Assembly: GCF_001927245.1 (NCBI RefSeq)
Contig: NZ_MJUX01000004.1
Span: 310,001-374,000, forward strand
Length of the DNA stretch: 64,000 nucleotides
Direction of reading: 5' to 3'
Source: Acuticoccus yangtzensis
GTDB lineage: Bacteria; Pseudomonadota; Alphaproteobacteria; Rhizobiales; Amorphaceae
The notes under the pieces are model-generated. The model ran no database searches. It was given only the letters and a program-made list of their open reading frames with translations, and was not told the DNA's origin. Positions within the stretch are counted from its first letter, which is position 1, and each line of letters opens with the position of its first letter. This document shows positions 21,968 through 48,925 of the stretch, in pieces. Both the position numbers and the translations under genes were made by a program.

Positions 21968-24900
21968 TCAGAGGATGAAGTCCGACACGCCGAGGGACGA
22001 CACGCCGTTCAGTTGAAGCTGCATCTCGATCGCCGCGTCGTCGTCGATATTGATGCTGACGATCGTCATCGCGCCGTAGACCAGGAACGACACTTCCGCA
22101 GTGCCTGGCGTGCGCGTCTGCCCCACGAAGGTCAGATCCTCGCTGCGCATCGTCGCCGTGTCGCCGTCGACGCCGGACAGGTCGATCAGGTCTTCACCGC
22201 GCACGAAGCCGGTCACCATGTCGCGCCGCTGAAAGCCGTAGCCCGTGTCGCCTGTGCCGATCACCGCGACGTCCGCCCCCTCGTCCATGACGAATGTGTC
22301 CGCCCCGGTGCCGCCGACCAGCGTGTCGTCGCCCGCACCGCCGATCAGCGTGTCGCGCCCACCCGCGCCGAACAGGCGGTCGGCGCCGCCCTCCCCGCGC
22401 AGATAGTTGGCGTCGGCGTTGCCGATGATGGTGTTGCGCCCGTCGTTGCCGTAGCCGACGCGCGCCCCGCCGCCGAACTCCAGCCGCTCGATGTTGTCGC
22501 CGAGCCGCGTGGTGCCGGCATAGGTCAGCACCGCGTCGTAGCCTTCGCCCGCCTGCTCCACCGTCACATCGTTGCGCACGCCGACGATGTAGAGGTCGTT
22601 GCCGCTGCCGCCGATCATCGTGTCGTTGCCGGCGCCGCCGTTCAGCGTGTCCGCCCCCGCCTCACCGCGCATATAATCGTTGCCGGCGTCGCCGCTGAGG
22701 AGGTTGTCGACGGCGTTGCCGATCAGCGTGTTGACAGACCCGTTGCCGGTGCCGCTTCGGGCAGTGCCCTGGAGCTCCAGCCGCTCGACATTTTCCGGCA
22801 GGGCATAGTCGATGAAGCTGCGCACCGTGTCCCAGCCCTCGCCCGCCTCCTCGCGCACGATGTCGCCCGCGTTGCCGACGGTGTAGCGGTCGTCGCCCGC
22901 CCCGCCGATCATCGTGTCGGCCCCGCCGCCACCATCCAGCGTGTCGCGGCCGGCCTGACCGACCATGTAGTCGTCGCCCGCCTTGCCCATGAGGCGGCTG
23001 TCGACGCCGTTGCCGATCAGCGTGTTGTCGTCCGCCGAGCCGATGCCGGACCACGCCGCGCCGCGCAGGACCAGCCGCTCCACGTGGGCGGGCAGCGTCA
23101 GGTTGACGTGCGCTTCAACCGTGTCGAGCCCGCCGCCCGCCTCCTCGACGATGAGATCACCCAACCCGTCGACGATGAAGCGGTCGTCCCCCTGTCCGCC
23201 GACGAGGGTGTCGGACCCCGCCCCGCCATCCAACCTGTCGTTGCCGCGCCCGCCGGACATGAGGTTGCCGAGCCCATTGCCGGTGAGCTGATCGTCGCCG
23301 TCGCCGGTGAAGGCATCCTCGATGGTCGCGCCGGCATCGACCCTGATGGCGACCCCGTCAATCCGGCCGGCGGCGCCTGCGGTGAGGTCGATGACGCTGG
23401 CCGCACGAACGGCGGCGGCGTTGATCGCGTCCCGCCCGCCGTCCGTGTCGGTGACCACGCGGCGGGCCGGCGCCGCCCCCGCGTAGTCGCTGAACTCGTC
23501 GGTGTAGATATAGACGTCGTCCGTCCCGCGACGGCCGGACAGCGTGATCGTCGCATTCGACACGAGGCCGGCGTCACCCAGATAGTCGTCGGTGAACCGC
23601 AGCGTCCACGTGCCGGCGCTGGCCTCGCCCCGGAAGGCGTTGCTCATCAGGGTCATGTCCTGCGTGCCGTAGTCGGTGGCGTCGGCGCTGCCGAAATTGT
23701 CGCGCATCAGCTCGCTGATGGTGCCGTCCGGCGACTCCAGCTCGATCTCGAGGTCGCTCAGCCACGTGTGGGTGAGGCCGAGCGAGAGGGCGACCCGCTC
23801 GATGTCGATCTCACCCGTCACCTGAAACGTCATCTCCACCGTGTCTTGGTCGACGATGGTCATGCTCGCCTGATCCGCCGCGACGTCCGCGATGGTGATG
23901 CGGTTGGCCTCGGTGCTGGTGCGCGTCCAGCTTTCGGCGAGGCGTACCGCCGCCAGCGCATCCACCAGACCGAAGCCGTAGTCCTCGGAAAAGTGCATGG
24001 CGCCGCCGTTCCAATCGGTGGCTCCGTTCCAGTCCCAGGCGTAGCGCTCGTTCCCGGTCAGGCCGCCGCCGTCGAAGGTGTCGCCGCCGGTGTGGCGCGC
24101 GGTCGCCGCGAGGATCGCCTGCACGTCGCGGTAGCCGAGGTCGGGGTTGGCCTCCAGCATCAGCGCCACGATACCCGACACCATGGGCGCGGCCGCGGAC
24201 GTGCCGTTGAAGCCCGTGGTGACGAGGTCCGACGCGCCGCCGCGGTTGTAGCCGAGGTGCCCGGTGCGGTCGGTGGTGACGACGTCCCCCGGTACGGGAC
24301 CGCCGAAGGAGGCGACCAGGAGCCCCGCCCCCTCGGTGGAATAGGTCGTTACGTCCCCGTCGCGCTCCACGGCGGCCACGGCGATCGTGCCCCAGTGCGA
24401 GGTGGTCCAGGATCCGGCCGTGTTGTCCAAGCTGCCGCGGCCGTTGCCGGCCGATTTGACGATGATGCTGCCGAGCCCGCCGCGCCCGAAGGCGACCGCA
24501 TCGTCCAGCGTGTCGTGGAGCCCGGCCTGGGCCAGATTCTGCGCCGAATCGTAGAACGCGGTGACGTAGCCCCAACTGTTGTTGATCACGTCGTAGTTGG
24601 CGAAGTTGGCGAAGGCGGCGGACAGTCCGACCGTCGGCCCCACGTGCGTGCCGTCGCCCGACAGGTCCGAGGGCGGAATGCCCGGCATCGAGAAGATCGC
24701 TGCGTCGTAGGCGATGCCGACGGTCCCGCTGCCGTTGTTCGCCGCGGCGATGATGCCGGCGACGGCGGTGCCGTGCGCCCCGTCGCGATCAGGGTGGTAG
24801 CCGTCGACCCCGCGCGCCTCCAGCGCGAAGGCGTAATTGGGCAGAAGATCGGGGTGGAGATAATCGATCCCGTCGTCCAACACCGCGACGCGCACTCCGG

Positions 24901-25138
24901 CGCCGGTATAGTCGTTCCAGACCGAATCCTTGCCGTCCACGAGGCGCAGGTCGCGCTGGCCGTAGGTGCTGTTGGCGAGATGATATTGGGCGGTGAACCA
25001 CGCGTCCGCCGGCAGCGTATCGAGGGCGAAGCGCGAGGCCTCCGCCTCTGCCGCGAGGCCGTCAATCGCGACGGCACCAGCGCCCTCGCGCACCGAAGAC
25101 GGGGTTGGGCTCTGGCCGCCAAGAGTTGTCACGGGCAT
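21968..25138 (-). CDS. Secreted subtilisin-like (S8) serine protease with P domain and RTX calcium-binding repeats
   Basis: Predicted calcium-dependent extracellular protease, about 1056 residues. The catalytic triad is visible: Asp88 (VAVLDDGID), His122 (DGAHGTAVAG) and Ser314 (GFNGTSAAAPM), with the oxyanion Asn near 232 (KSAGNG). A proprotein-convertase-type P domain follows around 400-510 (TWLSDLEIELESPDGT, GTWTLRFTDDY). From about 570 to 960 there are GGxGxDxLx repeats in blocks, and the end FVGQ...GVSSLGVSDFIL resembles the peptidase-M10 C-terminal/type I secretion region. There is no classical signal peptide, as expected for type I export. ATG 25138 has GAGAGGT about 10 bases upstream; longer in-frame starts run into a non-coding-looking region. 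No HlyB/HlyD exporter is nearby. Confidence 0.93.
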   Translation of the reverse strand: MPVTTLGGQSPTPSSVREGAGAVAIDGLAAEAEASRFALDTLPADAWFTAQYHLANSTYGQRDLRLVDGKDSVWNDYTGAGVRVAVLDDGIDYLHPDLLPNYAFALEARGVDGYHPDRDGAHGTAVAGIIAAANNGSGTVGIAYDAAIFSMPGIPPSDLSGDGTHVGPTVGLSAAFANFANYDVINNSWGYVTAFYDSAQNLAQAGLHDTLDDAVAFGRGGLGSIIVKSAGNGRGSLDNTAGSWTTSHWGTIAVAAVERDGDVTTYSTEGAGLLVASFGGPVPGDVVTTDRTGHLGYNRGGASDLVTTGFNGTSAAAPMVSGIVALMLEANPDLGYRDVQAILAATARHTGGDTFDGGGLTGNERYAWDWNGATDWNGGAMHFSEDYGFGLVDALAAVRLAESWTRTSTEANRITIADVAADQASMTIVDQDTVEMTFQVTGEIDIERVALSLGLTHTWLSDLEIELESPDGTISELMRDNFGSADATDYGTQDMTLMSNAFRGEASAGTWTLRFTDDYLGDAGLVSNATITLSGRRGTDDVYIYTDEFSDYAGAAPARRVVTDTDGGRDAINAAAVRAASVIDLTAGAAGRIDGVAIRVDAGATIEDAFTGDGDDQLTGNGLGNLMSGGRGNDRLDGGAGSDTLVGGQGDDRFIVDGLGDLIVEEAGGGLDTVEAHVNLTLPAHVERLVLRGAAWSGIGSADDNTLIGNGVDSRLMGKAGDDYMVGQAGRDTLDGGGGADTMIGGAGDDRYTVGNAGDIVREEAGEGWDTVRSFIDYALPENVERLELQGTARSGTGNGSVNTLIGNAVDNLLSGDAGNDYMRGEAGADTLNGGAGNDTMIGGSGNDLYIVGVRNDVTVEQAGEGYDAVLTYAGTTRLGDNIERLEFGGGARVGYGNDGRNTIIGNADANYLRGEGGADRLFGAGGRDTLIGGAGDDTLVGGTGADTFVMDEGADVAVIGTGDTGYGFQRRDMVTGFVRGEDLIDLSGVDGDTATMRSEDLTFVGQTRTPGTAEVSFLVYGAMTIVSINIDDDAAIEMQLQLNGVSSLGVSDFIL
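22285..23310 (-). repeat. RTX nonapeptide repeat blocks in the S8 protease
   Basis: Repeated GGxGxDxLx units, for example GGRGNDRLDGGAGSDTL, form several short calcium-binding beta-rolls. They are separated by about 70-residue linkers with the recurring pattern DTV...LP.NVERLEL.G.A..GTGN, the same linker type seen in the large RTX protein at 25929. Confidence 0.9.
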
Positions 25139-29807: not shown

Positions 29808-31199
29808 TCAGCGGCCGTCGGGCGTCTTCGTGCCGTACCATTTGCCGCGCACCGCGTCGGCGTGCTCCTTCGGATCGTAGAGCTGGTCGATGTTCAGGCC
29901 GAGGTTGCGCACGTTCAAACGGCCGATATCGGCGAGCACCTGGAAGGCGGCGGCATCCTTCGTGCGCTGGGCGGTCACGAGGGTGATCTGGTTGCTGATC
30001 AGGGTGCGCTGGGCGTCGAGAACGTCGAGCGTGGTGCGCTGGCCGACGCGCTGCTCCTCGATGACGCCCTGCAGCGCGAGCTGGGCGGAGAACACGCCCG
30101 TCTGCGCGTTGAAGATGGACCGCAGCGCGGCCTGGAAGGTCGCCCAGTCGGAGGCGATGGACTGACGCACGATGTTGCGCGTCAGGTCGACCTGCAGACG
30201 GGAGGCGCCGAGGCTCTCCTTGGCCTGGCGCACCTGGGCCGACGCCTGACCGCGCTGATAGATGGGGATAGTGAGGTTCAGACCCACACTGGCCGAGTCA
30301 CGCCGCCGCGGATTGGAGCTATTCTCGCTGGTGAAGGCGTTGAGGGTCGAGTTGGCCGAGGCGGTCGCGCTCAAGGTGGGAAGGAACTGCCCTTCCAACG
30401 AGGCGACGTTGAAGATGTTCGTGTCGACGTCGTGCAGCGCGGAGATGATGTCCGGGTGCGTCTGCAGGCCGATCTGCACCGAGCTCGCCAGAGTCTGGGG
30501 CAGCAGGCGCTCGACGTTGTAGTTGTCGCGCAGGTCGCGGGCGACGAGGTTGGTCTGGCGCTGGTAGGCGGCGCGGGCGGCCTCGAGGTTGGCTTCCGCC
30601 TGGGCGAGGAGGGTCTGCGATTCTGCGCGGGCGGCTTCGGCCTGCGACACGTCCGTCCGCGTGCCCTCGCCGACCTCGAAGCGGTCCTGGGCGGCGCGGA
30701 CCTGCTCGCCGAGGAATTCCACGTCGTTGCGACGCAGCGAGACGATCTCGCGATAGCGCAACACGTCGATGAAGGCGTTCGCGGTGGCGAGCAGGATGGA
30801 CTGCTCGATCGATTCGAGCTGCGAGCGCTGGGCACGCACCGCGGCCTCGGCCTGGCGGATGTTGTTGCGGACCTGGAACCCCTGGAACAACGGCTGCGTG
30901 AGCTGCACGCCGAAGGCCACCTGGTTGTTGACGCTGCCGGTGTTGGATCCGAGGTCGTTCAGGTAGGCGCGGGAGGTGGTGTAGGCCTGCTCCACAGTGG
31001 CCTGAACCAGAGGACGGTTGCCCGATCGGGCGATGGCGATGTTCTCGTCGATCGCGCGGAGCTGGGCGCGGGCGACGTTCAGTTGAGGATTGGTCGAGTA
31101 GGCGGCGGCCAGGGATTCGGTCATCGTCTGCGCGGACGCTGCCCCGCTGACGACCGTCACCGCTGCGGCCAAGGCTAAAACTCGAATACGACCTGGCAT
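29808..31199 (-). CDS. tolC: TolC family outer-membrane channel protein
   Basis: Trimeric outer-membrane/periplasmic tunnel used by type I secretion and tripartite efflux, about 463 residues. A signal peptide precedes SGAASAQTMTESLAAAY, the typical start of the mature protein. The two OEP repeats are visible: the first from NPQLNVARAQLRAIDENI to the GEGTRTDVSQAEA turn, the second from HPDIISALHDVDTNIFNVA to the VGQRTTLDVLDAQRTL turn, whose VG.RT..DVL.A pattern is diagnostic. ATG 31199 sits after a GAGGGCGAGAGC tract; ATG 31226 is an alternative. The two RTX proteins just downstream and the RND pump are plausible clients. It follows pcm, a pairing common in Hyphomicrobiales. Confidence 0.95.
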   Translation of the reverse strand: MPGRIRVLALAAAVTVVSGAASAQTMTESLAAAYSTNPQLNVARAQLRAIDENIAIARSGNRPLVQATVEQAYTTSRAYLNDLGSNTGSVNNQVAFGVQLTQPLFQGFQVRNNIRQAEAAVRAQRSQLESIEQSILLATANAFIDVLRYREIVSLRRNDVEFLGEQVRAAQDRFEVGEGTRTDVSQAEAARAESQTLLAQAEANLEAARAAYQRQTNLVARDLRDNYNVERLLPQTLASSVQIGLQTHPDIISALHDVDTNIFNVASLEGQFLPTLSATASANSTLNAFTSENSSNPRRRDSASVGLNLTIPIYQRGQASAQVRQAKESLGASRLQVDLTRNIVRQSIASDWATFQAALRSIFNAQTGVFSAQLALQGVIEEQRVGQRTTLDVLDAQRTLISNQITLVTAQRTKDAAAFQVLADIGRLNVRNLGLNIDQLYDPKEHADAVRGKWYGTKTPDGR

Positions 31200-33953: not shown

Positions 33954-35081
33954 GTGAGCACATCATCGTTTTCCCTGACGCGGCGCGGCCTGCTGGCCGG
34001 CTCGGCCAGCCTTGTCCTGTCCGCACCGATGATCAATCGCGGCTGGGCCCAGGATCCGACCCCCATCAACATGCTCGCCTGGTACGGCCATGCCGAGCCC
34101 GACATGGTGGCCGAGTTCGAGGCCGAAAACAACGTCAAGTTCATCCCGAAGTACTATGCGGGCGGCGACAACATGCTGGCCCTCATCGCGCAGTCTCCGG
34201 TCGGCACCTACGACATCATCCTGTCCGACGCCGAGTTCGTGCAGCAGCTCAACGCCGCCGGATACATCGAGGAGATGGACGCCTCGCTGTTCCCGTTCGA
34301 TGATTTCTGGCCGCAATACCAGAAGTTCCCCGGCCACTGGACCGATGATCAGCTCTGGTCCGTCATGGTCCGCTTCGGCCTCCTCGGCGTCTCCTACAAC
34401 ACCGACGCGCTGACCCGCGACGAAGCGATGAGCTACAACGCCTTCTGGAACGAGAAGGTGAAGGGCAAGGTCGGCCACTTCGATTGGCACCTTCCCTCGC
34501 TCGGCCAGATCTCGCTGCTGAACGGCAACAACAACCCCTCCCCGTTCGACATCGACGAGGCCGCCTGGGAGGCGGTGATGGAGAAGACCCTGTCGCTGAA
34601 GCCGCAGGTCGGCGGCTATTTCGACTATGGCGGAACCTTCGCCTCGCTGAAGAACGGCGAAATGCTGGCCATGTGCGGCATCGGCGACTGGATCACCGGC
34701 GTCTTGCAGAAGGACGGCGCCCCCGTCGCCTCGGTCATTCCCGAGGAAGGCGGCATCCAGTGGACGGAGAGCTATTCCATCGGCAAAGGCACGACGAAGC
34801 ACGAGATCATCAACAAGTTCATCCAGTACATGCTGTCGCCACGCGGGCAGGTGCGGTCGATCCAGATGGCGGCTTATCCTGGCCTGTCGCCCACCAAGTC
34901 GGGGTGGACGGCGATCCAGGAGGCGAACCCCGCCGAGGCGGAGCGCTCCGGCCTGATCGAAGGCCACGACCAGAGCCCGATCAAGCTCCTGGAGGAAGGC
35001 CGGCTCTTCTTCCGCGACATCCCACAGCAGCAGTCGCTGGAGGACTGGAACGACTTCTGGTCCGAGTACAAGACCGCCTGA
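33954..35081 (+). CDS. Polyamine-type ABC transporter periplasmic binding protein, probable Tat substrate
   Basis: Periplasmic receptor of the spermidine/putrescine (PotD/PotF) class, about 375 residues. GTG 33954 has GAGGAG 5 bases upstream. The N-terminus SLTRRGLLAGSASLVLSAPM carries a twin-arginine motif and ends in RGWAQD. INMLAWYGHAEPDMVAEFEAENNV, YDIILSDAEFVQQL and EEGGIQWTESYSIGKG resemble PotD-type proteins. It starts an operon with two permeases, an ATPase and catabolic genes, which suggests a cationic nitrogen-rich ligand rather than a housekeeping polyamine. The ligand itself is unproven. Confidence 0.9.
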   Translation: MSTSSFSLTRRGLLAGSASLVLSAPMINRGWAQDPTPINMLAWYGHAEPDMVAEFEAENNVKFIPKYYAGGDNMLALIAQSPVGTYDIILSDAEFVQQLNAAGYIEEMDASLFPFDDFWPQYQKFPGHWTDDQLWSVMVRFGLLGVSYNTDALTRDEAMSYNAFWNEKVKGKVGHFDWHLPSLGQISLLNGNNNPSPFDIDEAAWEAVMEKTLSLKPQVGGYFDYGGTFASLKNGEMLAMCGIGDWITGVLQKDGAPVASVIPEEGGIQWTESYSIGKGTTKHEIINKFIQYMLSPRGQVRSIQMAAYPGLSPTKSGWTAIQEANPAEAERSGLIEGHDQSPIKLLEEGRLFFRDIPQQQSLEDWNDFWSEYKTA

Positions 35082-35153
35082 CCTCGCCCGTCCATTGCCC
35101 ACACCGAGGGGCCGTGCGCGGCCCCTCACCCGTTCCGCCGGTGAAAGTCCCGC

Positions 35154-35999
35154 ATGCCGTCCCGCACCGACGTCTATAAATACGTCTGGCGCCTGCCGCT
35201 GATCCTTTGGCAGGGCCTCTTCTTCGTCGTCCCGCTGCTTCTGATGGTGGCGATGTCCTTCTGGCTCGTGCGCAACTACCGCATGACGCCGGACTTCATC
35301 TTCGACAACTGGGAGCGGATGCTGACACGCGGCTACGTCTGGAACGCCTACGAGGTGACGTTCCTGCGCGCCACGGTGGCGGCGGCGCTGGCGAGCCTCA
35401 TCGCCTTCCCGGCCTCCTTCGCGCTCGCCTTCCGCGTGTCGGAGACGACGCGGCGCTGGGCGATCTTCTTCCTCATCGTGCCGTTCTTCACCTCCTACCT
35501 CGTGCGGGTCTACGCGTGGCAGGTGCTGCTGGCGGAAAGCGGGCCGATCAACGCCGTCCTCGGCTTCGCCGGGCTCGGCCCCTTCACGATGCTCAATTCC
35601 GGCTTCGGCGCCATGGTCGGCTACATGACGCTGGTGCTGCCGCTCGTCGTCATCCTGCAGACCTTCAGCCTGGCGGCGATCGACAAGAACCTCATCGAGG
35701 CGGCCGCGAACCTCGGCGCCGGGGCGGCGCAGCGGCTCTTCAATGTCATCATCCCCGCCGCCAAGGTGGGTCTCATCCTGGGCGCGGTCTTCGCCTTCAT
35801 CCTCTCCTTCGGCGACTTCGTGAGCCCCTTCTATCTCGGCGGCTCCAAACCGCCCACGCTCTCCATCCTCATCATCGACACCACGAAATCCGGCCAGCAG
35901 TGGCCGCGCGCGGCTGTGGTCGCGGTGATGATGATCGTCACCCTGTTCGTGGTCGCCTTCGCCGCCGTCGGCGCGGCCTATGGGCGGAGGAACGGCTGA
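35154..35999 (+). CDS. ABC transporter permease, PotB/PotH type
   Basis: Inner-membrane permease of 281 residues with about six membrane spans. The first is LILWQGLFFVVPLLLMVAMSF. The cytoplasmic EAA loop is IEAAANLGAGAAQRLFNVIIP and the FGDFVSPFYLGGSKPPTLS stretch is characteristic of the PotB side of polyamine-type transporters. It starts at ATG 35154, 72 bases after the binding-protein gene, and its TGA overlaps the next ATG. Confidence 0.94.
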   Translation: MPSRTDVYKYVWRLPLILWQGLFFVVPLLLMVAMSFWLVRNYRMTPDFIFDNWERMLTRGYVWNAYEVTFLRATVAAALASLIAFPASFALAFRVSETTRRWAIFFLIVPFFTSYLVRVYAWQVLLAESGPINAVLGFAGLGPFTMLNSGFGAMVGYMTLVLPLVVILQTFSLAAIDKNLIEAAANLGAGAAQRLFNVIIPAAKVGLILGAVFAFILSFGDFVSPFYLGGSKPPTLSILIIDTTKSGQQWPRAAVVAVMMIVTLFVVAFAAVGAAYGRRNG

Positions 36000-36775
36000 T
36001 GCGCTCCGGCGTCCTCCTCAGGCTCTACATCGCCGCCGTCTTCGTTTTCGTGTTCGCGCCGATCGTCACCAGCATGGTGTTCTCGGTGAATTCGGACCGC
36101 TTCCCCACCGTGCCGCTCGGCCACTTCACGTGGGACTGGTACCGCACCGCTTTCGCACGGCCGGAGGTGTGGACGGCGATCCAGAACTCGCTGATCGTCG
36201 CGGCGTGTGCGGCAACGCTGTCGACCCTCATCGGCTTTGCCACCGCCTATACGGACTACCGCTACGGCTTCCGCTTCAAGACCGCCTATCTGGCGCTGGC
36301 GCTGCTGCCGCCGACCATCCCGGTCGTCATCATGGGGCTCGCCATGCTGGCGTGGCTGGGACGGCTCGGCCTGTCGGGAACGCTGACGGGCATCGTCATC
36401 GCCCACACGGTGATGGCGGCGCCCTTCGCCATGGCCATCTGCCGCCTGCGCCTCAACCAGATGGACGCCGCGCTGGAACCCGCCGCCTGGAACCTCGGCG
36501 CCACCCAGTGGAGGGCGATGCGCGCGGTGGTCATCCCCTTCTGCGCCCCCGCCCTCGTCTCCGCCTTCTGCCTCACGGCGGCGGTGTCGTTCGACGAGTT
36601 CATCGTCGCCTGGTTCGTCTCCGGCCTCAACAAGACGGTGCCGGTGATGATCCTGGAAATCCTGCAAGGCAACGTCGACCCGCAGATCAACGCCATCGGC
36701 ACCCTCGTCTTCCTCACCTCGATGACCCTCGTGATCGCCGCTCAGCTTCTCATCATCCGCCGGAGTTCCACATGA
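35999..36775 (+). CDS. ABC transporter permease, PotC/PotI type
   Basis: Second permease, 258 residues from ATG 35999 (the frame is open farther upstream but only inside potB). LYIAAVFVFVFAPIVTSMVFS is the first membrane span, DWYRTAFARPEVWTAIQNSL the usual PotC periplasmic motif, and EPAAWNLGATQWRAMRAVVIP the EAA loop. VSFDEFIVAWFVSG and LPVMI-type features (TVPVMILEIL) fit PotC. It overlaps both neighbours by a few bases, so expression is tightly coupled. Confidence 0.94.
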   Translation: MRSGVLLRLYIAAVFVFVFAPIVTSMVFSVNSDRFPTVPLGHFTWDWYRTAFARPEVWTAIQNSLIVAACAATLSTLIGFATAYTDYRYGFRFKTAYLALALLPPTIPVVIMGLAMLAWLGRLGLSGTLTGIVIAHTVMAAPFAMAICRLRLNQMDAALEPAAWNLGATQWRAMRAVVIPFCAPALVSAFCLTAAVSFDEFIVAWFVSGLNKTVPVMILEILQGNVDPQINAIGTLVFLTSMTLVIAAQLLIIRRSST

Positions 36776-37827
36776 CCGCCCCGCTCGTGCGCCTCGAGGG
36801 CGTCAAGAAGTCCTACGGGGACAGCGTCGCGGTGAAGGGGATCGACCTTGCCATCGGCCGGGGCGAGTTCATCGCCATCATGGGCCCGTCCGGCTGCGGC
36901 AAGACCACCACCTTGCGCATGCTGGCGGGGCTGGAGACGCCGACCGAAGGCACCGTCACCATCGACGGCAAGGTGATGAACGACGTGCCGGTCCACGCGC
37001 GCGACACGCCACTGGTGTGGCAGTCGCTCGCCCTCTTCCCGTTCCTCAACGTCGCCCAGAACGTGGAATTCGGCCTGAAGATGCGCGGCGTTCCCGCGAA
37101 GGAGCGGCGCCAGAAGGTGGCGACGTGGCTGGACCGGCTCGGCCTCAGCGACTTCGCCCGGCGGCGGGTGGACCAGCTTTCCGGCGGCCAGCGCCAGCGC
37201 GTGGCGCTCGCCCGCAGCCTCGTCACCGAGCCGCCGATCCTCCTCCTCGACGAGCCTCTGTCGGCGTTGGACGCGCACCTCGTCATCCGCATGCAGGGGG
37301 TGCTGACGAAGCTGCAGCGCGAGCTCGGCATCACCTTCGTCTACGTCACCCACTCGCAGTCCGAAGCGTTCGCGATGGCGGACCGCGTCGTCATCATGGG
37401 CCATGGCGAGATCGCGCAGATCGGCCGCCCGCGCGAGATCTTCCGCGCCCCGCGCAATCGCTTCGTGGCCGAGTTCGTGGGCCGCAACAACATCCTGTCC
37501 GGCACCGTCTCCGGCGGGGCGATCGACCTCGGCCCCATCACCGTGCCGCTGCCTGGCGCCGCCGACGGCCCGGCCGAGATCGTCGTCGCCGCGGACCGGA
37601 TGAAAATCTCGCGCGAGGCGCCGGCCGCACCGGCGCTCGCCGCCGACTTCGTGTCGGAGGAGTTCGCGGGCACCGGCATCATCTGCTATTTCGAGGGCCC
37701 CGGCGGCGAGGAACTCAAGGCGCAGGTGAGCGAGGACGAGCTGGAGGCGCTCGACCCCGCACCCGGCGCGCGGTTTTATCTCACCTGGGCGCCCGAGTCG
37801 GCGCACGTGATGACAGGTCAGTCATGA
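36772..37827 (+). CDS. ABC transporter ATP-binding protein, PotA type
   Basis: ATPase powering the importer, 351 residues. Walker A GPSGCGKT is at 38-45, the Q-loop in LVWQSLALFPFLNV, the signature LSGGQRQRV near 136, Walker B ILLLDEPLS near 157 and the H-loop in VYVTHSQSEAFAMADR. A C-terminal regulatory TOBE region follows from about 240 (FVGRNNILSGTVSGGAI), as in PotA. Starts at ATG 36772, overlapping potC, and ends in an ATGA overlap with the deaminase gene, which ties transport to catabolism. Confidence 0.96.
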   Translation: MTAPLVRLEGVKKSYGDSVAVKGIDLAIGRGEFIAIMGPSGCGKTTTLRMLAGLETPTEGTVTIDGKVMNDVPVHARDTPLVWQSLALFPFLNVAQNVEFGLKMRGVPAKERRQKVATWLDRLGLSDFARRRVDQLSGGQRQRVALARSLVTEPPILLLDEPLSALDAHLVIRMQGVLTKLQRELGITFVYVTHSQSEAFAMADRVVIMGHGEIAQIGRPREIFRAPRNRFVAEFVGRNNILSGTVSGGAIDLGPITVPLPGAADGPAEIVVAADRMKISREAPAAPALAADFVSEEFAGTGIICYFEGPGGEELKAQVSEDELEALDPAPGARFYLTWAPESAHVMTGQS

Positions 37828-39065
37828 ACATCGACATCATCGTGAAGGGCGGCACCCTGCCGGACGGGCGGGTGGCCGACATCGCCATCGCGGACGGGCG
37901 CATCGCCGCTGTGGACGACGCCATCACCGCCGAGGCGGGCGAGGTGATCGACGCGTCGGGCAAGCTCGTCGCCCAGCCCTTCGTGGACGCGCACTTCCAC
38001 ATGGACGCGACGCTCTCCTACGGCCGCCCGCGGGTGAACGCATCGGGCACGCTCCTCGAAGGCATCGCGCTGTGGGGCGAACTGAAGGCGATCCAGTCGC
38101 GCGAGGACATCGTGGAGCGGGCGCTCGCCTACTGCCGCCAGGCCGTCGCGAAAGGCGTCCTCGCGATCCGCAGCCACGTGGACGTGACGGACCCGTCCTT
38201 CGCCACGGTCGAGGCGCTCTTGGAGGTGCGCGAGGCGGTGAAGGACACGCTGGACCTGCAGCTCGTCGCCTTTCCGCAGGACGGCTGGTTCCGCGCCGAG
38301 GGGGGCGGCGCCAACGTGGTGCGGGCGCTGGATGCCGGGGTAGACGTCGTCGGCGGCATCCCGCATTTCGAGCGGACGATGGCGGACGGGTTCGCGGCGG
38401 TGCGGGCGGCGTGCGAGCTGGCGGCGGAGCGGGGCCTTCGCGTCGACCTCCACTGCGACGAGAGCGACGACCCGATGAGCCGTCACATCGAGACGCTGGC
38501 GGCCGAGACGATCCGCTGCGGCCTTCAGGGCCGTGTGGCAGGCTCGCACCTCACGTCCATGCACTCGATGGACAACTATTACGTCGCCAAGCTCATCCCG
38601 CTGATTGCCGAGGCCGAGGTGGCGGCGATCCCCAACCCGCTGATCAACATCACGCTGCAGGGGCGGATGGACACCTACCCGAAGCGGCGCGGGCTGACGC
38701 GGGTGCCGGAGCTGGCGGCGTCCGGTGTGACGGTGGCGTTCGGTCAGGATTGCGTTATGGACCCGTGGTACCCGCTCGGCTCGGGCGACATGCTGGACGT
38801 TGCGCACATGGGGCTACACGTGGCGCTGATGACCTCGCCGGACGCGATGCGCCGCGCCTTCGCGATGGTGACGGACACGCCGGCCGCCATCCTCGGCCTC
38901 GACTTCGGCCTGACGACCGGCGACCGCGGAAGCCTCGTGGTGCTGGACGCGGCCGACCCGATCGAGGCGCTGCGCCTGCGCCCGGCCCGTCTCGCGGTCA
39001 TCTCCAACGGCCGCGTCGTCTCACGCACCGCCCCGGCTGTCTCCACCGTGACGGCGAGCTTCTGA
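37824..39065 (+). CDS. Cytosine deaminase-family amidohydrolase (CodA-like)
   Basis: Cytoplasmic metal-dependent deaminase of 413 residues. Against E. coli CodA, recalled key residues align at a constant offset of -4: metal ligands His57/His59 (DAHFHMDATL), His210 and catalytic Glu213 (LHCDESDDP), His242 (GSHLTSMHSMD), Asp309 (FGQDC), substrate Gln152 (AFPQDG) and Trp315 (MDPWY). GIPHFERT and GRMDTYPKRRGLTRV are also CodA signatures. The position after the metal Asp, Asp314 in E. coli, is Cys here. The reaction should be hydrolytic removal of ammonia from a cyclic amidine (cytosine, creatinine, isoguanine or similar). Starts in an ATGA overlap with the transporter ATPase. Confidence 0.9.
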   Translation: MNIDIIVKGGTLPDGRVADIAIADGRIAAVDDAITAEAGEVIDASGKLVAQPFVDAHFHMDATLSYGRPRVNASGTLLEGIALWGELKAIQSREDIVERALAYCRQAVAKGVLAIRSHVDVTDPSFATVEALLEVREAVKDTLDLQLVAFPQDGWFRAEGGGANVVRALDAGVDVVGGIPHFERTMADGFAAVRAACELAAERGLRVDLHCDESDDPMSRHIETLAAETIRCGLQGRVAGSHLTSMHSMDNYYVAKLIPLIAEAEVAAIPNPLINITLQGRMDTYPKRRGLTRVPELAASGVTVAFGQDCVMDPWYPLGSGDMLDVAHMGLHVALMTSPDAMRRAFAMVTDTPAAILGLDFGLTTGDRGSLVVLDAADPIEALRLRPARLAVISNGRVVSRTAPAVSTVTASF

Positions 39066-39127
39066 TGCTCTCGTTCTTCTCGGCGCCCTGTGAGGCGCTC
39101 ACGGTCGGGTGCCGCGCTAGCCTGACC

Positions 39128-39360
39128 AAGGGAACTGCGCTGTTGCGCAGTTCCCTTCATTTGCTGCTGAAGTCCGCAAGAGCGGACTTCAGGGCCGCCG
39201 TCGCGCCAATCCCTTGGCGGAGACGGTGGTACGCGCGCAAGGAGCCGCAGGCCGGCTTTAGCCGCTTGTCCTTGCGCGTGTGCCGCCGTCTCTGCCATGC
39301 GGTGCAGGGCGACGGTGGGTCCGGTGGTCAGGCGGGCCCGCTGACCATTGGTGGGACCCG
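39128..39360. repeat. Array of six successive hairpins in the deaminase-hydrolase gap
   Basis: The 337-base gap 39066-39402 has no gene but is packed with inverted repeats. Stem 1: 39128-39140 with 39145-39157, 13 perfect pairs, loop TGTT. Stem 2: 39167-39177 with 39182-39192, 11 perfect pairs, loop AAGA. Stem 3: 39194-39230, outer GCCGCCGTC/GACGGTGGT and inner CGCCAA/TTGGCG. Stem 4: 39231-39243 with 39269-39281, 13 pairs including one wobble. Stem 5: 39283-39290 with 39311-39318, CCGCCGTC/GACGGTGG, echoing stem 3. Stem 6: GGGTCC/GGACCC (39317-39359) enclosing TGGTCAG/CTGACCA. None has a T-run. It could be a structured RNA, a mobile palindromic element or mRNA-processing signals. Confidence 0.75.
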
Positions 39361-39402
39361 AGCCCGCCGGAGGCTGCGGCGGCGCCCCCAAGGGAGGCCC
39401 TG

Positions 39403-40269
39403 ATGCTGCTGCACCCCCTCCCCTGGCCCACCGGCAAGCGCCTCGCAGCGTCCATCACCTTCGACGTCGATGCGGACAGTCTCATCCGCAACGCGCGACC
39501 GGACGACGGGCACCTGAGGCTCCACCCCGTCACCATGGGCCGCTACGGCCCCACGGTGGCGGTGCCGCGCATTCTGGACACGTGGCAAAGGTTCGGCATC
39601 CGCCAGACCTTCTTCATGCCGGCGTGGGTGATGGAGACCTATCCCGCCACGGTGGAGGCGATTTTGAAGGGGGGCCACGAGATCGGCCACCACTCGTGGC
39701 GCCACGAGGACCCGCTCGGCCATTCGGACGACCGCGAGGCGGAGCTTTTCGGCCGCGCGATGGACACGCACGTCAGGATGACCGGCACCAAGCCGCGCGG
39801 CTACAGGGCGCCGGTCTACAACGCCACACCCGCCATCATCGGCCGGCTGATCGACGAAGGGTTCCTGTACGATTCCTCCCTGATGGCCGACGAGATCCCG
39901 TACCTGATGCGCCATCCCAAGGGCGAGATCATCGAGTTGCCGCCACACTGGGGGGCGGACGACTGGCCGCCCTTCGCCCATTTCGAGGAAATCGGCTACC
40001 TGATGCCGGTGCGCGCCCCGTCGGACGGCATCCGCGCCTTCCAGGAGGAGTATGCCGCGATGCACGCCGCGGGCGGCTTCTTCATGCCGGTGCTGCACCC
40101 CTTCCTGACCGGCCGTCTGGCGCGCTGGGCGGCGATGGAGGCGTGGCTTGCCCCGCTGGTCGAGGCGGGCGACACATGGTTCGCGCCGCTGGAGGAGATC
40201 GCCGCCCACGCCGCGCGCCACCGGGACCTGCTCCGGGTGGACACCATCGCCGAAGGAGACCCCGCGTGA
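39403..40269 (+). CDS. Polysaccharide deacetylase-fold (NodB) hydrolase, HpPgdA/cyclic-imide-hydrolase-like
   Basis: 288-residue NodB-fold metal hydrolase without a signal peptide. Metal-site motifs are SITFDVDAD near 17-25 and HEIGHHSWRHEDP near 90, with TGTKPRGYRAPVYN and FLYDSSLM after them. The late stretch EIIELPPHWGADDWPPF resembles the Helicobacter PgdA-like subgroup, where several cytoplasmic members act on cyclic imides or allantoin rather than sugars. Lack of export signal and its operon position support a small-molecule ring-opening role here. ATG 39403 has GGGAGG 6 bases upstream. The stop overlaps the next start. Confidence 0.85.
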   Translation: MLLHPLPWPTGKRLAASITFDVDADSLIRNARPDDGHLRLHPVTMGRYGPTVAVPRILDTWQRFGIRQTFFMPAWVMETYPATVEAILKGGHEIGHHSWRHEDPLGHSDDREAELFGRAMDTHVRMTGTKPRGYRAPVYNATPAIIGRLIDEGFLYDSSLMADEIPYLMRHPKGEIIELPPHWGADDWPPFAHFEEIGYLMPVRAPSDGIRAFQEEYAAMHAAGGFFMPVLHPFLTGRLARWAAMEAWLAPLVEAGDTWFAPLEEIAAHAARHRDLLRVDTIAEGDPA

Positions 40270-41279
40270 CCCCTGTCGACCCCGCCTACCTCCCCGTCTC
40301 CGCGTTCGACGTGCCGCGCTTCGCCGGTCTCGCCACGGTGATGCGCCTGCCGGTGCGCACGGCGGCGGCGCCGGACGGGGCGGAGATCGGCTTCCTCGGC
40401 ATCCCGTTCGACGGCGGCACCACCAACCGGCCGGGCGCGCGGCACGGCCCGCGGGCGGTGCGCGACGCGTCGACGATGATCCGCATGGTCAACCAGGCGA
40501 CGGCGGCGGCGCCGTTCCACACAGCCCGCGCGGCCGACTTCGGCGACGCGCAGGTGAACCTTGCCGACCTCACCCACACCCTCACACTGATCGAGGCGCA
40601 GACCGCGGCGCTGCGCGCAGGCGGCGTCGTCCCGCTCCTCATCGGCGGCGACCATCTCATCACCCTCCCGGCGCTCCGTGCGGCTCGGGCGGCGGCGGAC
40701 GGCCCGCTTGGCCTCGTCCACTTCGACGCGCACACGGACCTCTTCGACAGCTACTTCGGCGGCATGCGCTATACCCACGGCACCCCCTTCCGGCGCGCGG
40801 TGGAGGAAGGGCTGCTCGACCCGAAGAGGATGATCCAGATCGGCATCCGCGGCACCACCTATGACGGCGAGGACCGCGCCTTTGCAGCCGCCAACGGCAT
40901 CCGCATCGTCACCATCGAGGAGTTTCGCGAGCGCGGGCCTAAGGACGTGATGGCCGAGGCGCGGAACGTGGTGGGGAGCGCCCCCACCTACCTCTCCTTC
41001 GACATCGACGCGCTGGACCCCACCATCGCCCCCGGCACGGGCACGCCCGAGATCGGCGGCCTCACCGCCTACGAGGCGCAAGTGATGCTGCGCGCGCTGG
41101 ACGGGGTGGACATCGTCGCGGGCGACCTCGTCGAGGTGGCTCCGGGCCTCGACCCCGCGGGCGGCACCGCGTGGCACGGCGCGTCGATATTGTTCGAGAT
41201 GCTGTGCGTGGTCGCCGCCGCCACCGCCCGCCGCAAAGGCCGCGAGCCGGTGCTGTGCGCCAACCTGAAGGGCGCGTGA
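40266..41279 (+). CDS. Agmatinase/ureohydrolase family protein, first copy
   Basis: Binuclear-metal hydrolase of the arginase/agmatinase fold, 337 residues, expected to release urea from a guanidino compound. Metal ligands are His130 (IGGDH), Asp154/His156/Asp158 (FDAHTD), and Asp246/Asp248 (SFDIDALDP), all intact. GIPFDGGTTNRPGARHGPRAVR and PGTGTPEIGGLT match SpeB-like enzymes. GTG 40266 has GAAGGAGA 7 bases upstream and overlaps the preceding TGA. A second, clearly different member follows one base later. Guanidinobutyrase or a guanidino-acid hydrolase is as likely as agmatinase. Confidence 0.9.
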   Translation: MTPVDPAYLPVSAFDVPRFAGLATVMRLPVRTAAAPDGAEIGFLGIPFDGGTTNRPGARHGPRAVRDASTMIRMVNQATAAAPFHTARAADFGDAQVNLADLTHTLTLIEAQTAALRAGGVVPLLIGGDHLITLPALRAARAAADGPLGLVHFDAHTDLFDSYFGGMRYTHGTPFRRAVEEGLLDPKRMIQIGIRGTTYDGEDRAFAAANGIRIVTIEEFRERGPKDVMAEARNVVGSAPTYLSFDIDALDPTIAPGTGTPEIGGLTAYEAQVMLRALDGVDIVAGDLVEVAPGLDPAGGTAWHGASILFEMLCVVAAATARRKGREPVLCANLKGA

Positions 41280-41280
41280 G

Positions 41281-42225
41281 ATGGCTCACGGCTACGAGAC
41301 GGGGCGGCTGAACCTTCCTTTCGTCGGCATCTGCACCTTCGCCAAGGCGCCTTACGTCACCACGCTCGCCCCCGGCGAGGCGGACGTCGCCATCCTCGGC
41401 GCGCCGTTCGACTTCGGCACACAGTGGCGCGCGGGCGCCCGGTTCGGCCCGCGCTCGGTGCGCGAGGCGTCCACCCTCTTCTCTTTCGGCCATGCCGGCG
41501 CCTACGACCACGAGGACGACACGACCTATCTGGCGGACACCCGCATCGTCGACCTCGGCGACGCGGACATCGTCCACACCGACACCGAGACGAGCCACGC
41601 CAACATCGAGGCCGGGGTGCGGGCGATCCTGGCGGCGGGGGCGCTTCCGGTGGTGATCGGCGGCGACCATTCGATCAACATCCCCTGCGTGCGTGCCTTT
41701 TCGGATCACGGGCCGATCCACATCGTCCAGTTCGATGCGCATCTGGACTTCGTGGACGAGCGGCACGGCGTGCGCCACGGCCACGGCAACCCGATGCGCC
41801 GCGCCGCCGAACAGGACCACGTCACCGGCCTCTCCCAATTCGGCATCCGCAACGTGTCGTCCACCGCCAAGGAGGGCTACGAGGCGGCCCGCGCGATGGG
41901 GTCGGACATCCTCTCCGTGCGCCAGATCCGCGCGCTGGGCGCCGAGGCCGTGCTCGCCCGCGTCCCCGCCGGTGCGCGCTACTATGTGACGATCGACATC
42001 GACGGCTTCGACCCGTCGATCGCGCCCGGCACGGGCACCCCGTCGCACGGCGGCTTCCACTATTACGAGGTGCTGGAGCTTCTGGCGGGGCTCGCGAAGC
42101 GCGGCACCATCGTCGGCGTCGACCTCGTCGAGGTGGCGCCGGACTACGACCATTCGGGGTCGACGGCGATCCTGGCGGCACAGATCCTCCTCAACCTCAT
42201 CGGCCGGATCATGGCGGCCCGCTGA
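41281..42225 (+). CDS. Agmatinase/ureohydrolase family protein, second copy
   Basis: 314-residue homologue of the preceding enzyme. The metal site is intact: His130 (IGGDH), Asp152/His154/Asp156 (FDAHLD), and TIDIDGFDPSIAPGTGTP. It differs in the substrate-side loops: QWRAGARFGPRSVREAS and RHGVRHGHGNPMRRAAE replace the TNRPGARHGPRAVR and MRYTHGTPFRRAVE of the first copy. This divergence argues for a heteromer or sequential steps on different guanidino substrates, not a recent duplication. It begins one base after the upstream stop. Confidence 0.9.
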   Translation: MAHGYETGRLNLPFVGICTFAKAPYVTTLAPGEADVAILGAPFDFGTQWRAGARFGPRSVREASTLFSFGHAGAYDHEDDTTYLADTRIVDLGDADIVHTDTETSHANIEAGVRAILAAGALPVVIGGDHSINIPCVRAFSDHGPIHIVQFDAHLDFVDERHGVRHGHGNPMRRAAEQDHVTGLSQFGIRNVSSTAKEGYEAARAMGSDILSVRQIRALGAEAVLARVPAGARYYVTIDIDGFDPSIAPGTGTPSHGGFHYYEVLELLAGLAKRGTIVGVDLVEVAPDYDHSGSTAILAAQILLNLIGRIMAAR

Positions 42226-42247
42226 GGCGGCGGCGCGCCGACCCGCG

Positions 42248-43147
42248 ATGGAACAGCTCTACGCCCTCTTCGCCGAGGTCGCGCGGCAGGGATCGATCCG
42301 CAAGGCGGCGGACCGGCTCGGCCTGTCGGCGGCCTCCGTCAGCCGCCACATCGCGCGGCTGGAACACTCGCTGGACGCGCCGCTGCTGGACCGGCGCACC
42401 GACGGCGTGCGGCTCACCCCTGCGGGTGAGCTCCTGCTGCGCTTCATCGCCGACCGCACGCGCGAGTTGGAGCGCCTGCGCGCGGCCATCAACGAGTTGA
42501 AGGCGGTGGAGCGGGGTCACGTCTCGCTGTTCACGGTAGAGGGGATGCTGGGCGGCTTCATCCCGGGGGCGATCGCCACATTCGCGCGGCTCTATCCCGG
42601 CATCACCCACGAGCTGGTGGTGGCGGGGACGGACAACGTCGTCGCCGCCGTCGCCGAGGACCGCTGCGATATCGGCATCGCCTTCCAGCCGCAGCCGCGC
42701 GGCGGGGTGACCACGGTGGCGCAGATGCGCCAGCCGGTGCTGGCCGTCGTCGGTGCCGGGCATCCCCTGGCGGGGCGGCACGGGATCACCATGGCCGACC
42801 TTGCCAGCGAGCCGCTGTGCCTGCCGGACAAGACCTTCGGCATCCGCCAGGCGGTCGACCGGGCGGCCAAGCGGGCGGGTATCACCGCGCTCCACATGGA
42901 GACCAACTCCATCGACATGATGCGCCACTTCGCGCTGACCGGGATGGGCGTCACCTTCATGCCGGCCTTCGCGTTCGAGCGGGAGGCGGCGGCGGGCAGC
43001 CTCGTCGGCATCGCCATCGCCGATTCGAACCTGGAAAGTGCCACGGCGAAGGTGTGCATCCACGCCGAGCGCAGCCTGACGTGGGCCGCGCGGCGCATGC
43101 TCGACATCATCCTCAACGCCAGGCCGGACGGGTTCCGCCCCGTCTGA
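42248..43147 (+). CDS. LysR-family transcriptional regulator
   Basis: 299-residue LTTR. The N-terminal helix-turn-helix spans residues 1-60 (QGSIRKAADRLGLSAASVSRHIARLEHSL, RLTPAGELLLRF), followed by a linker helix and a periplasmic-binding-protein-like effector domain (GHVSLFTVEGMLGGFIPGAIATF, DIGIAFQPQPRGG, MRHFALTGMGVTFMPAFAFE). It lies 22 bases after the second ureohydrolase in the same direction and just before a TTGCA-N5-TGCAA dyad upstream of the liv operon. It could regulate the guanidino cluster, the liv operon, or both. Confidence 0.9.
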   Translation: MEQLYALFAEVARQGSIRKAADRLGLSAASVSRHIARLEHSLDAPLLDRRTDGVRLTPAGELLLRFIADRTRELERLRAAINELKAVERGHVSLFTVEGMLGGFIPGAIATFARLYPGITHELVVAGTDNVVAAVAEDRCDIGIAFQPQPRGGVTTVAQMRQPVLAVVGAGHPLAGRHGITMADLASEPLCLPDKTFGIRQAVDRAAKRAGITALHMETNSIDMMRHFALTGMGVTFMPAFAFEREAAAGSLVGIAIADSNLESATAKVCIHAERSLTWAARRMLDIILNARPDGFRPV

Positions 43148-48172: not shown

Positions 48173-48925
48173 ATGACCGACACCGTGGCGATGGACGCGG
48201 GCGGCTATGACTACATGCCGGGCGTGTTCCAATATTCATGCGGCGTCGCCGCCCAGCCGGGCTTCGAGATCAAGCGCGTGCGCTTCGCCAACCCGGTGCC
48301 GCTGGCCGAAGGGTTCGCCCGCGCCAAGGCGCACATCGAGGCCGAGGGGCGCCCGCTGACCGCCTTCTGCCAGTGCGAGCTGCGCTCCCCCGGCCAGTTC
48401 TCCGAGGACGGCTTCCGCGCCTTCAACGAGCTCTACTGCGGCACCTTGGAGGAATGGGGCATCTACAAGAACGGCATCAACCCCGTCGCCCGCTCCAACG
48501 TGTGTCCCGAGATCGACGCGCCCGCGACCCCGTCCTTCCACGCCTTCGCCTACACCGTGCCGTCTGACGTCGCGGGCACCTTCGCCATCGCCGGCAGCGG
48601 CGAGGTGCCGGAGGGCAAGAACAACTATTTCGACCACGTCGTGGCGCGCGGCGACCAGAGCCCGGCCGGCATGACCGCCAAAGCCCGCCATGTGCTGGGC
48701 GAGATGGAGCGCCGCATGGCCGCCTTCGGCAAAGGCTGGGCGGACGTGACCGCGGCGCAGGTCTACACGGTGTTTCCGATCCACGCCTTCCTGGCCGACG
48801 AGCTGGTCGCCCGCGGTGCGGCGCGGCACGGTGCCACCTGGCATTTTGCCCGCCCGCCCATCGTCCAGCTCGATTACGAGATGGACACGCGCGGGGTCTA
48901 TTCGGAAAGCGTCATCCCGGCCTGA
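48173..48925 (+). CDS. Conserved protein of unknown function, possible 2-aminomuconate-deaminase-like (CnbZ-type)
   Basis: 250 residues from ATG 48173 with AGGAGA 6 bases upstream. It has no signal peptide, membrane span or common nucleotide motif. Distinctive stretches are FQYSCGVAAQPGFEIKRVRF, LTAFCQCELRSPGQFSEDGF, GINPVARSNVCPEIDAPATP and GSGEVPEGKNNYFDHVV. The pattern recalls, from memory only and with low certainty, the 2-amino-5-chloromuconate deaminase CnbZ family from nitroaromatic degradation. Its place after a liv operon and beside a fumarylacetoacetate-hydrolase-family gene and a ThDP enzyme fits ring-cleavage-product metabolism. The gene is certainly real; its function is not established. 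Confidence 0.85.
   Translation: MTDTVAMDAGGYDYMPGVFQYSCGVAAQPGFEIKRVRFANPVPLAEGFARAKAHIEAEGRPLTAFCQCELRSPGQFSEDGFRAFNELYCGTLEEWGIYKNGINPVARSNVCPEIDAPATPSFHAFAYTVPSDVAGTFAIAGSGEVPEGKNNYFDHVVARGDQSPAGMTAKARHVLGEMERRMAAFGKGWADVTAAQVYTVFPIHAFLADELVARGAARHGATWHFARPPIVQLDYEMDTRGVYSESVIPA

Follow-up and report, generated by a model that had tools for sequence, protein, structure and literature searches.

The nine-gene cluster at positions 33954-43147 of a 64,000-nucleotide stretch of the Acuticoccus yangtzensis genome (G000:C24:310001-374000, where G000 is this bacterium's own genome; hereafter "the window") probably takes up a ring compound resembling creatinine and opens it for its nitrogen, using predicted enzymes unlike those of the textbook creatinine pathway. 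All nine genes are on the + strand in the order PotD-PotB-PotC-PotA-CodA-NodB-agm1-agm2-LysR, and family models agree with the families named in the original prediction, which was made from this DNA alone. The genes themselves are observed directly, as are their intact catalytic residues, their conservation and the way in which clusters of different genomes swap parts. In the open-licence PMC literature we found no published cluster with this combination of genes. The features are as follows.

33954..35081, +, PotD-like extracellular solute-binding protein with a GTG start (PF13416, 82.7 bits)
35154..35999, +, PotB-like ATP-binding cassette (ABC) permease (PF00528; PotB model 106.8 of 348 bits)
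35999..36775, +, PotC-like ABC permease (PF00528; PotC model 153.7 of 326 bits)
36772..37827, +, PotA-like ABC ATPase with a TOBE_2 domain (PF00005, PF08402)
37824..39065, +, CodA, amidohydrolase of the cytosine/creatinine deaminase type (NF005748, 713.1 of 438 bits)
39066..39402, no strand, CodA-NodB gap with a hairpin repeat at about 39133-39194 and a 190-bp dispersed repeat at about 39194-39389
39403..40269, +, NodB-fold amidohydrolase, the proposed ring opener in the creatininase slot (PF01522)
40266..41279, +, agm1, ureohydrolase near 3-guanidinopropionase (PF00491, 301 bits)
41281..42225, +, agm2, second ureohydrolase, of a family common in Alphaproteobacteria (PF00491, 276.5 bits)
42248..43147, +, LysR-type regulator (PF03466, PF00126)

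The spacing is +72 bp at PotD-PotB, -1 at PotB-PotC, -4 at both PotC-PotA and PotA-CodA, +337 at CodA-NodB, -4 at NodB-agm1, +1 at agm1-agm2 and +22 at agm2-LysR. The tight packing described in the original prediction holds for five of these eight junctions, which overlap or lie 1 base apart, but the 337-bp gap went unmentioned there.

The importer and its neighbors in other genomes

The importer is Pot-like, as had been proposed, but it falls below the cut-offs of the polyamine models: the NCBIfam PotD equivalog (60.5 of 582 bits), TIGR01187 (293.8 of 355.6 bits) and the NCBIfam PotB and PotC models (scores listed above). For this reason the idea of an ordinary polyamine operon is weakened, and we do not adopt it. 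Homologs of PotD with E <= 1e-80 occur in 28 of 295 genomes in the family of Roseovarius spongiae (G590), close homologs in 8 of 385 sampled genomes of the class and homologs with E <= 1e-60 in 3 of the 8 genomes of the genus (the last two counts include the window's own genome), which speaks against an accident of one genome.

We compared 35 PotD loci from the class and G590-family samples, picked regardless of their neighbors and excluding the window's own locus; loci reached through agm2 or NodB are left out of this count, L305 and L306 are extra pieces of L234 and L237, and some loci (e.g. L220, L221, L288 and L297) end at contig ends. Genes were scored by tblastn with coverage thresholds rather than from gene calls, which were wrong at L218, L219, L234 and L279, and "creatininase" in the counts means tblastn similarity; identity thresholds were added for the agm2-locus counts and for the counts of NodB, Fcy1-like and URC neighbors. 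Within about 10 kb of PotD we found creatininase at 15 loci, creatinase at 11, NodB at 11, sarcosine oxidase at 4, a deaminase (CodA, Fcy1-like or TrzA-like) at 17, agm1 at 2, agm2 at 3, and BtpA and a phosphoribosyltransferase at 15 each. At L223 (13855-15237) the last two are fused in one 460-aa gene, and both are present at 14 other loci of the 35.

Creatininase lies near PotD more often than expected by chance, at 15 of 35 loci compared with 8 genes above the curated cut-off in 100 G590-family genomes. Such genes are rare in that family: the 8 are in 7 genomes, four of the genes lie within 5 kb of PotD, and they occur in 4 of 10 PotD genomes versus 3 of 90 others (p 0.0016). The creatininase model is passed at PotD loci L222, L235, L236, L238, L079, L301 and L310, and also at agm2 locus L136 (307 bits); the creatininase-like gene of L309, a locus outside the 35, fails it. 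The label creatinase is our assumption from sequence features, the neighbors and the NCBI annotation "M24 family metallopeptidase", and no gene so labeled matched a curated creatinase model.

Parts are exchanged between these clusters. L301 and L303 read PotD-B-C-A-TrzA-creatininase-agm2-agm1 and mirror the window, with TrzA or CodA in the deaminase slot and creatininase or NodB in the ring-opening slot. L217 and L219, whose PotD proteins are 91.8% identical, both have a Fcy1-like deaminase, accompanied by NodB in one and by creatininase and creatinase in the other. In the third PotD genome of the genus (L310) a Fcy1-like gene, PotDBCA, TrzA, creatininase (306 of 235 bits) and CodA stand in a row, and an island of Tropicimonas isoalkanivorans carries PotDBCA (PotD 90% identical), CodA (83%), creatinase, agm1 (57%), NodB (71%) and agm2 (83%). 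A strict mutual exclusion of NodB and creatininase is too weakly supported to keep (both at 2 of the 35 loci, creatininase alone at 13, NodB alone at 9; Fisher p 0.049). Of 22 plasmid records that match PotD, five were read; three of these, from Paracoccus aminovorans, Mesorhizobium terrae and Azoarcus KH32C, have annotated creatininase and M24 enzyme genes beside PotDBCA, and the last also has hydantoinase A/B nearby. PotDBCA adjoins an amidase, NodB and a urea-carboxylase-associated gene on a Leisingera plasmid, and CodA, BtpA and a phosphoribosyltransferase on a Rhodovulum plasmid.

With creatininase, creatinase and sarcosine oxidase beside orthologous importers in relatives, the likely substrate is a cyclic guanidine of the creatinine type. 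The creatinine-like compound of the original prediction gains from these relatives, but the substrate may instead be cytosine or another pyrimidine.

The enzymes and a possible pathway

From this material we infer the substrate, step order, products and regulation. Our best reading, to which we give an even chance, is that the operon serves to break down a creatinine-type cyclic (acyl)guanidine. The cation would enter through PotDBCA; NodB would open the ring to a guanidino acid, standing in the creatininase slot of the sister clusters; agm1, agm2 or both would split off urea so that an amino acid remains, as creatinase does in the textbook pathway; CodA may form a side branch by deaminating creatinine or cytosine; and LysR would regulate the whole. 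Where the window LysR is the best reference for a LysR gene at a PotD locus, the two share 25-31% identity.

NodB meets the Pfam gathering score for PF01522, and its fold agrees. Its metal site is intact and retains the second histidine, which is replaced by Trp in PuuE allantoinase, and it fails the PuuE model TIGR03212 (66.4 of 424.6 bits). PuuE and HpPgdA, NodB-fold proteins with small substrates, are among its nearest folds, nearer than the sugar deacetylases listed, in a ranking that re-examines the matches returned by Foldseek itself and covers the families listed there. PMC3084791 notes HpPgdA homologs beside polyamine importers and reports HpPgdA inactive on the compounds listed there, allantoin included.

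Both ureohydrolases exceed the TIGR01230 agmatinase cut-off of 174.3 bits (agm1 185.7, agm2 200.5), and the metal-ligand motifs are invariant in four agm1 and four agm2 sequences, leaving the site intact in both window proteins. The best PDB match of agm1 is 3nip (364 bits, compared with 195 for E. coli SpeB); it is nearer to the 3-guanidinopropionase GpuA, its closest PDB relative, than to SpeB and falls in one clade with GpuA (node support 0.60), but here it is linked to a ring hydrolase. As agm1 groups with GpuA at that support, we dropped 3-guanidinopropionate as a sure product. GTDB genomes contain 588 or more stretches related to agm2; across the 80 loci nearest to the window protein the family is 77-84% conserved, yet agm2's best PDB match (1wog) reaches only 209 bits. 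At these 80 loci we found NodB at 22, creatininase at 9 and both at 3, and NodB or creatininase accompanies all 11 agm2 loci that bear agm1 versus 17 of the 69 that do not. Two adjacent ureohydrolase genes also encode metformin hydrolase, which keeps the metal site in its alpha subunit only (PMC11399263); a heteromer of that kind with one dead subunit is rejected here, since both sites are intact.

CodA passes the cytosine deaminase model NF005748 (PRK07572 type) and matches eight of nine active-site positions of the E. coli enzyme (H61, H63, Q156, H214, E217, H246, D313 and W319 are conserved; D314 is Cys). It is better placed on a parallel branch than at step one, because a deaminated cyclic guanidine is a cyclic urea without a guanidino group. 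Of the sequence deaminate, open, split off urea in the original prediction, the last two steps are the best reading of the 11 of 11 agm1-bearing loci, but deamination first would be chemically awkward. Taken as a whole, that earlier idea is partly supported.

The cluster may work like the creatininase-creatinase-sarcosine oxidase pathway with neither creatininase nor creatinase in it: the logic would be the same, ring opening followed by urea release, and orthologous importers adjoin those very genes in relatives, but the window has NodB and two ureohydrolases in their place, and its importer is a Pot-type ABC system rather than the CreT or CrnT named in PMC8864220. More tentatively, and at somewhat less than an even chance, the HpPgdA-like metal-binding branch of the NodB fold may comprise unrecognized cyclic (acyl)guanidine amidohydrolases, functional analogs of creatininase that feed agmatinase-family ureohydrolases, and the Pot-type ABC system may be the creatinine/creatine importer that roseobacters and rhizobia have seemed to lack. 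NodB-fold proteins of unassigned function would thereby gain a testable substrate class. For Roseobacter denitrificans, which uses creatine without CreT (PMC8864220) and for which no importer is named, the Pot-type system would be a candidate. Animals release nitrogen as creatinine and creatine, wastes that end up in soil and sea, so the cluster is relevant to nitrogen recycling, and makers of assays would have a use for new enzymes active on creatinine.

Competing explanations

Several observations weigh against a creatinine-type substrate. Seven of the 35 PotD loci have no creatininase, creatinase, NodB, deaminase or agm gene, and the eight closest relatives (PotD 82-90% identical; L234, L278-L282, L309 and L315) all have BtpA and a phosphoribosyltransferase, with CodA in seven, no model-passing creatininase in any and creatinase only in L234. 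Creatininase and phosphoribosyltransferase occur together at 1 of the 35 loci, each alone at 14, and neither at 6. The window's own genome has no creatininase above the TIGR04448 cut-off (best 70.1 of 235 bits), and its creatinase-like gene, 65% identical to that of Tropicimonas and adjoining a LysR gene, is on another contig (L250, G000:C12:1238364-1239560). At none of 29 further CodA loci read in the order is there a NodB or agm gene within 1.5 kb, and 51 of the 80 agm2 loci lack any companion gene. Human AGMAT, also a ureohydrolase, hydrolyzes neither creatine nor guanidinoacetate (PMC9772407). NodB orthologs of about 60% identity adjoin a Fcy1-like deaminase and several are also near URC1-like and uracil phosphoribosyltransferase (UPRT) genes, neighbors that suggest pyrimidines.

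These last points make a pyrimidine role a serious rival, though we consider it unlikely. PotDBCA would import cytosine or a modified cytosine-like base, CodA would deaminate it and NodB would deacylate it or open the derived ring, while agm1 and agm2 would be an independent guanidino-acid unit sharing the operon. CodA's match to the cytosine deaminase model fits this, as do BtpA and the phosphoribosyltransferase at the nearest PotD loci, the PRK07198/URC1-like gene beside NodB orthologs (749 of 403 bits) and the nine-member clade that is the direct sister of the CodA proteins linked to PotDBCA, each member of which has what we take to be a nucleoside-type ABC permease directly upstream (of the 29 further CodA loci, 11 show a readable permease of this kind; at the others gene calls failed or another gene is present). 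The URC4-like gene found near NodB orthologs has no model match. This route leaves agm1 and agm2 without a role, and it does not account for the creatininase and creatinase beside closely related importers or for NodB beside agm2 at 22 of 80 loci. The creatinine-type reading has its own alternative in a hydantoin route, which we think improbable: CodA would convert creatinine to N-methylhydantoin, NodB would open this without ATP to N-carbamoylsarcosine in place of HyuA/HyuB, and agm1 and agm2 would act on other guanidino acids. A CodA-type creatinine deaminase followed by a hydantoinase is described in PMC8864220 and PMC6742649, PuuE belongs to the NodB fold, CodA and NodB are neighbors in the window, L309 and L281, and hydantoinase A/B lies near this importer in Azoarcus KH32C. 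The cluster shares the CodA-type deaminase with that described route, but HyuAB and the amidase that completes it are absent among its nine genes, none of which matches the N-carbamoylsarcosine amidase (isochorismatase) family; a caprolactamase/hydantoinase-A-like gene (453.7 of 1000 bits) is at window 3-1940, 32 kb away. At L079/L237, moreover, NodB adjoins agm2 and CodA is in a separate gene group, and the tracking of agm1 with NodB or creatininase would go unexplained. Ordinary polyamine or agmatine use, with a polyamine importer beside agmatinases and unrelated neighbors, is least probable, indeed very doubtful: the Pot-like importer and the TIGR01230 scores favor it, but the PotD and TIGR01187 models fail, agm1 is nearest to 3-guanidinopropionase, and creatininase, creatinase and deaminases recur beside the importer in other genomes.

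Further neighbors of NodB and the importer were noted. At L036-L038, L040, L042 and L224, NodB and Fcy1-like pairs lie near URC1-like, URC4-like or UPRT genes, an arrangement that suggests a link between uracil degradation and this kind of importer. At L049 and L051-L054, NodB is near creatininase-like, nucleoside-type BMP ABC and presumably amidinotransferase-like genes (the last without a Pfam match). DUF1989 or "urea carboxylase-associated" genes stand beside NodB or the importer at L312, L316, L285, L296 and L309, those near the importer at the last three being DUF1989 genes; DUF1989 proteins include a carboxyguanidine deiminase, which would fit a guanidino product. On two plasmids NodB lies beside the urea-carboxylase-associated gene and near an amidase, a further hint in favor of the guanidine reading.

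The CodA-NodB gap and other features of the window

The 337-bp gap that splits the cluster looks like a later insertion and not an old boundary, because at L309, in the same genus, PotD-B-C-A-CodA-NodB-agm1 are contiguous and the CodA stop is 23 bp from the NodB start, with the window's repeat absent. The importer, CodA and NodB of L309 are 76-88% identical to those of the window and agm1 is 72% identical; agm2 was not found in the 19.9-kb stretch read there. This locus, with the same order up to agm1, and the relatives elsewhere bear out that the set is not unique to the window's genome. About three-quarters of the gap matches dispersed repeats of that genome, at 35 or more other places, with at least 25 other matches over more than 100 bases of the 190-bp element and at least 8 over the 60-bp hairpin element; these are lower bounds, 40 of 91 candidates having been scored. 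Matches to the two elements (window 39133-39389) are sometimes adjacent to each other elsewhere in the genome. Two strong hairpins are predicted in the gap, where a 75-base piece folds at -48 kcal/mol, and a gene inside the gap is rejected because it is mostly repeats.

Rfam and tRNA scans of the window gave no matches. A 250-aa protein without a Pfam match is encoded at 48173-48925, after an ABC operon of the branched-chain amino acid type. Upstream of the cluster, a 1041-aa protein at 21968-25093 has sub-cut-off matches to serine protease (mycosin) and RTX-type models, and near it, at 29808-31124, is a putative TolC-like gene.

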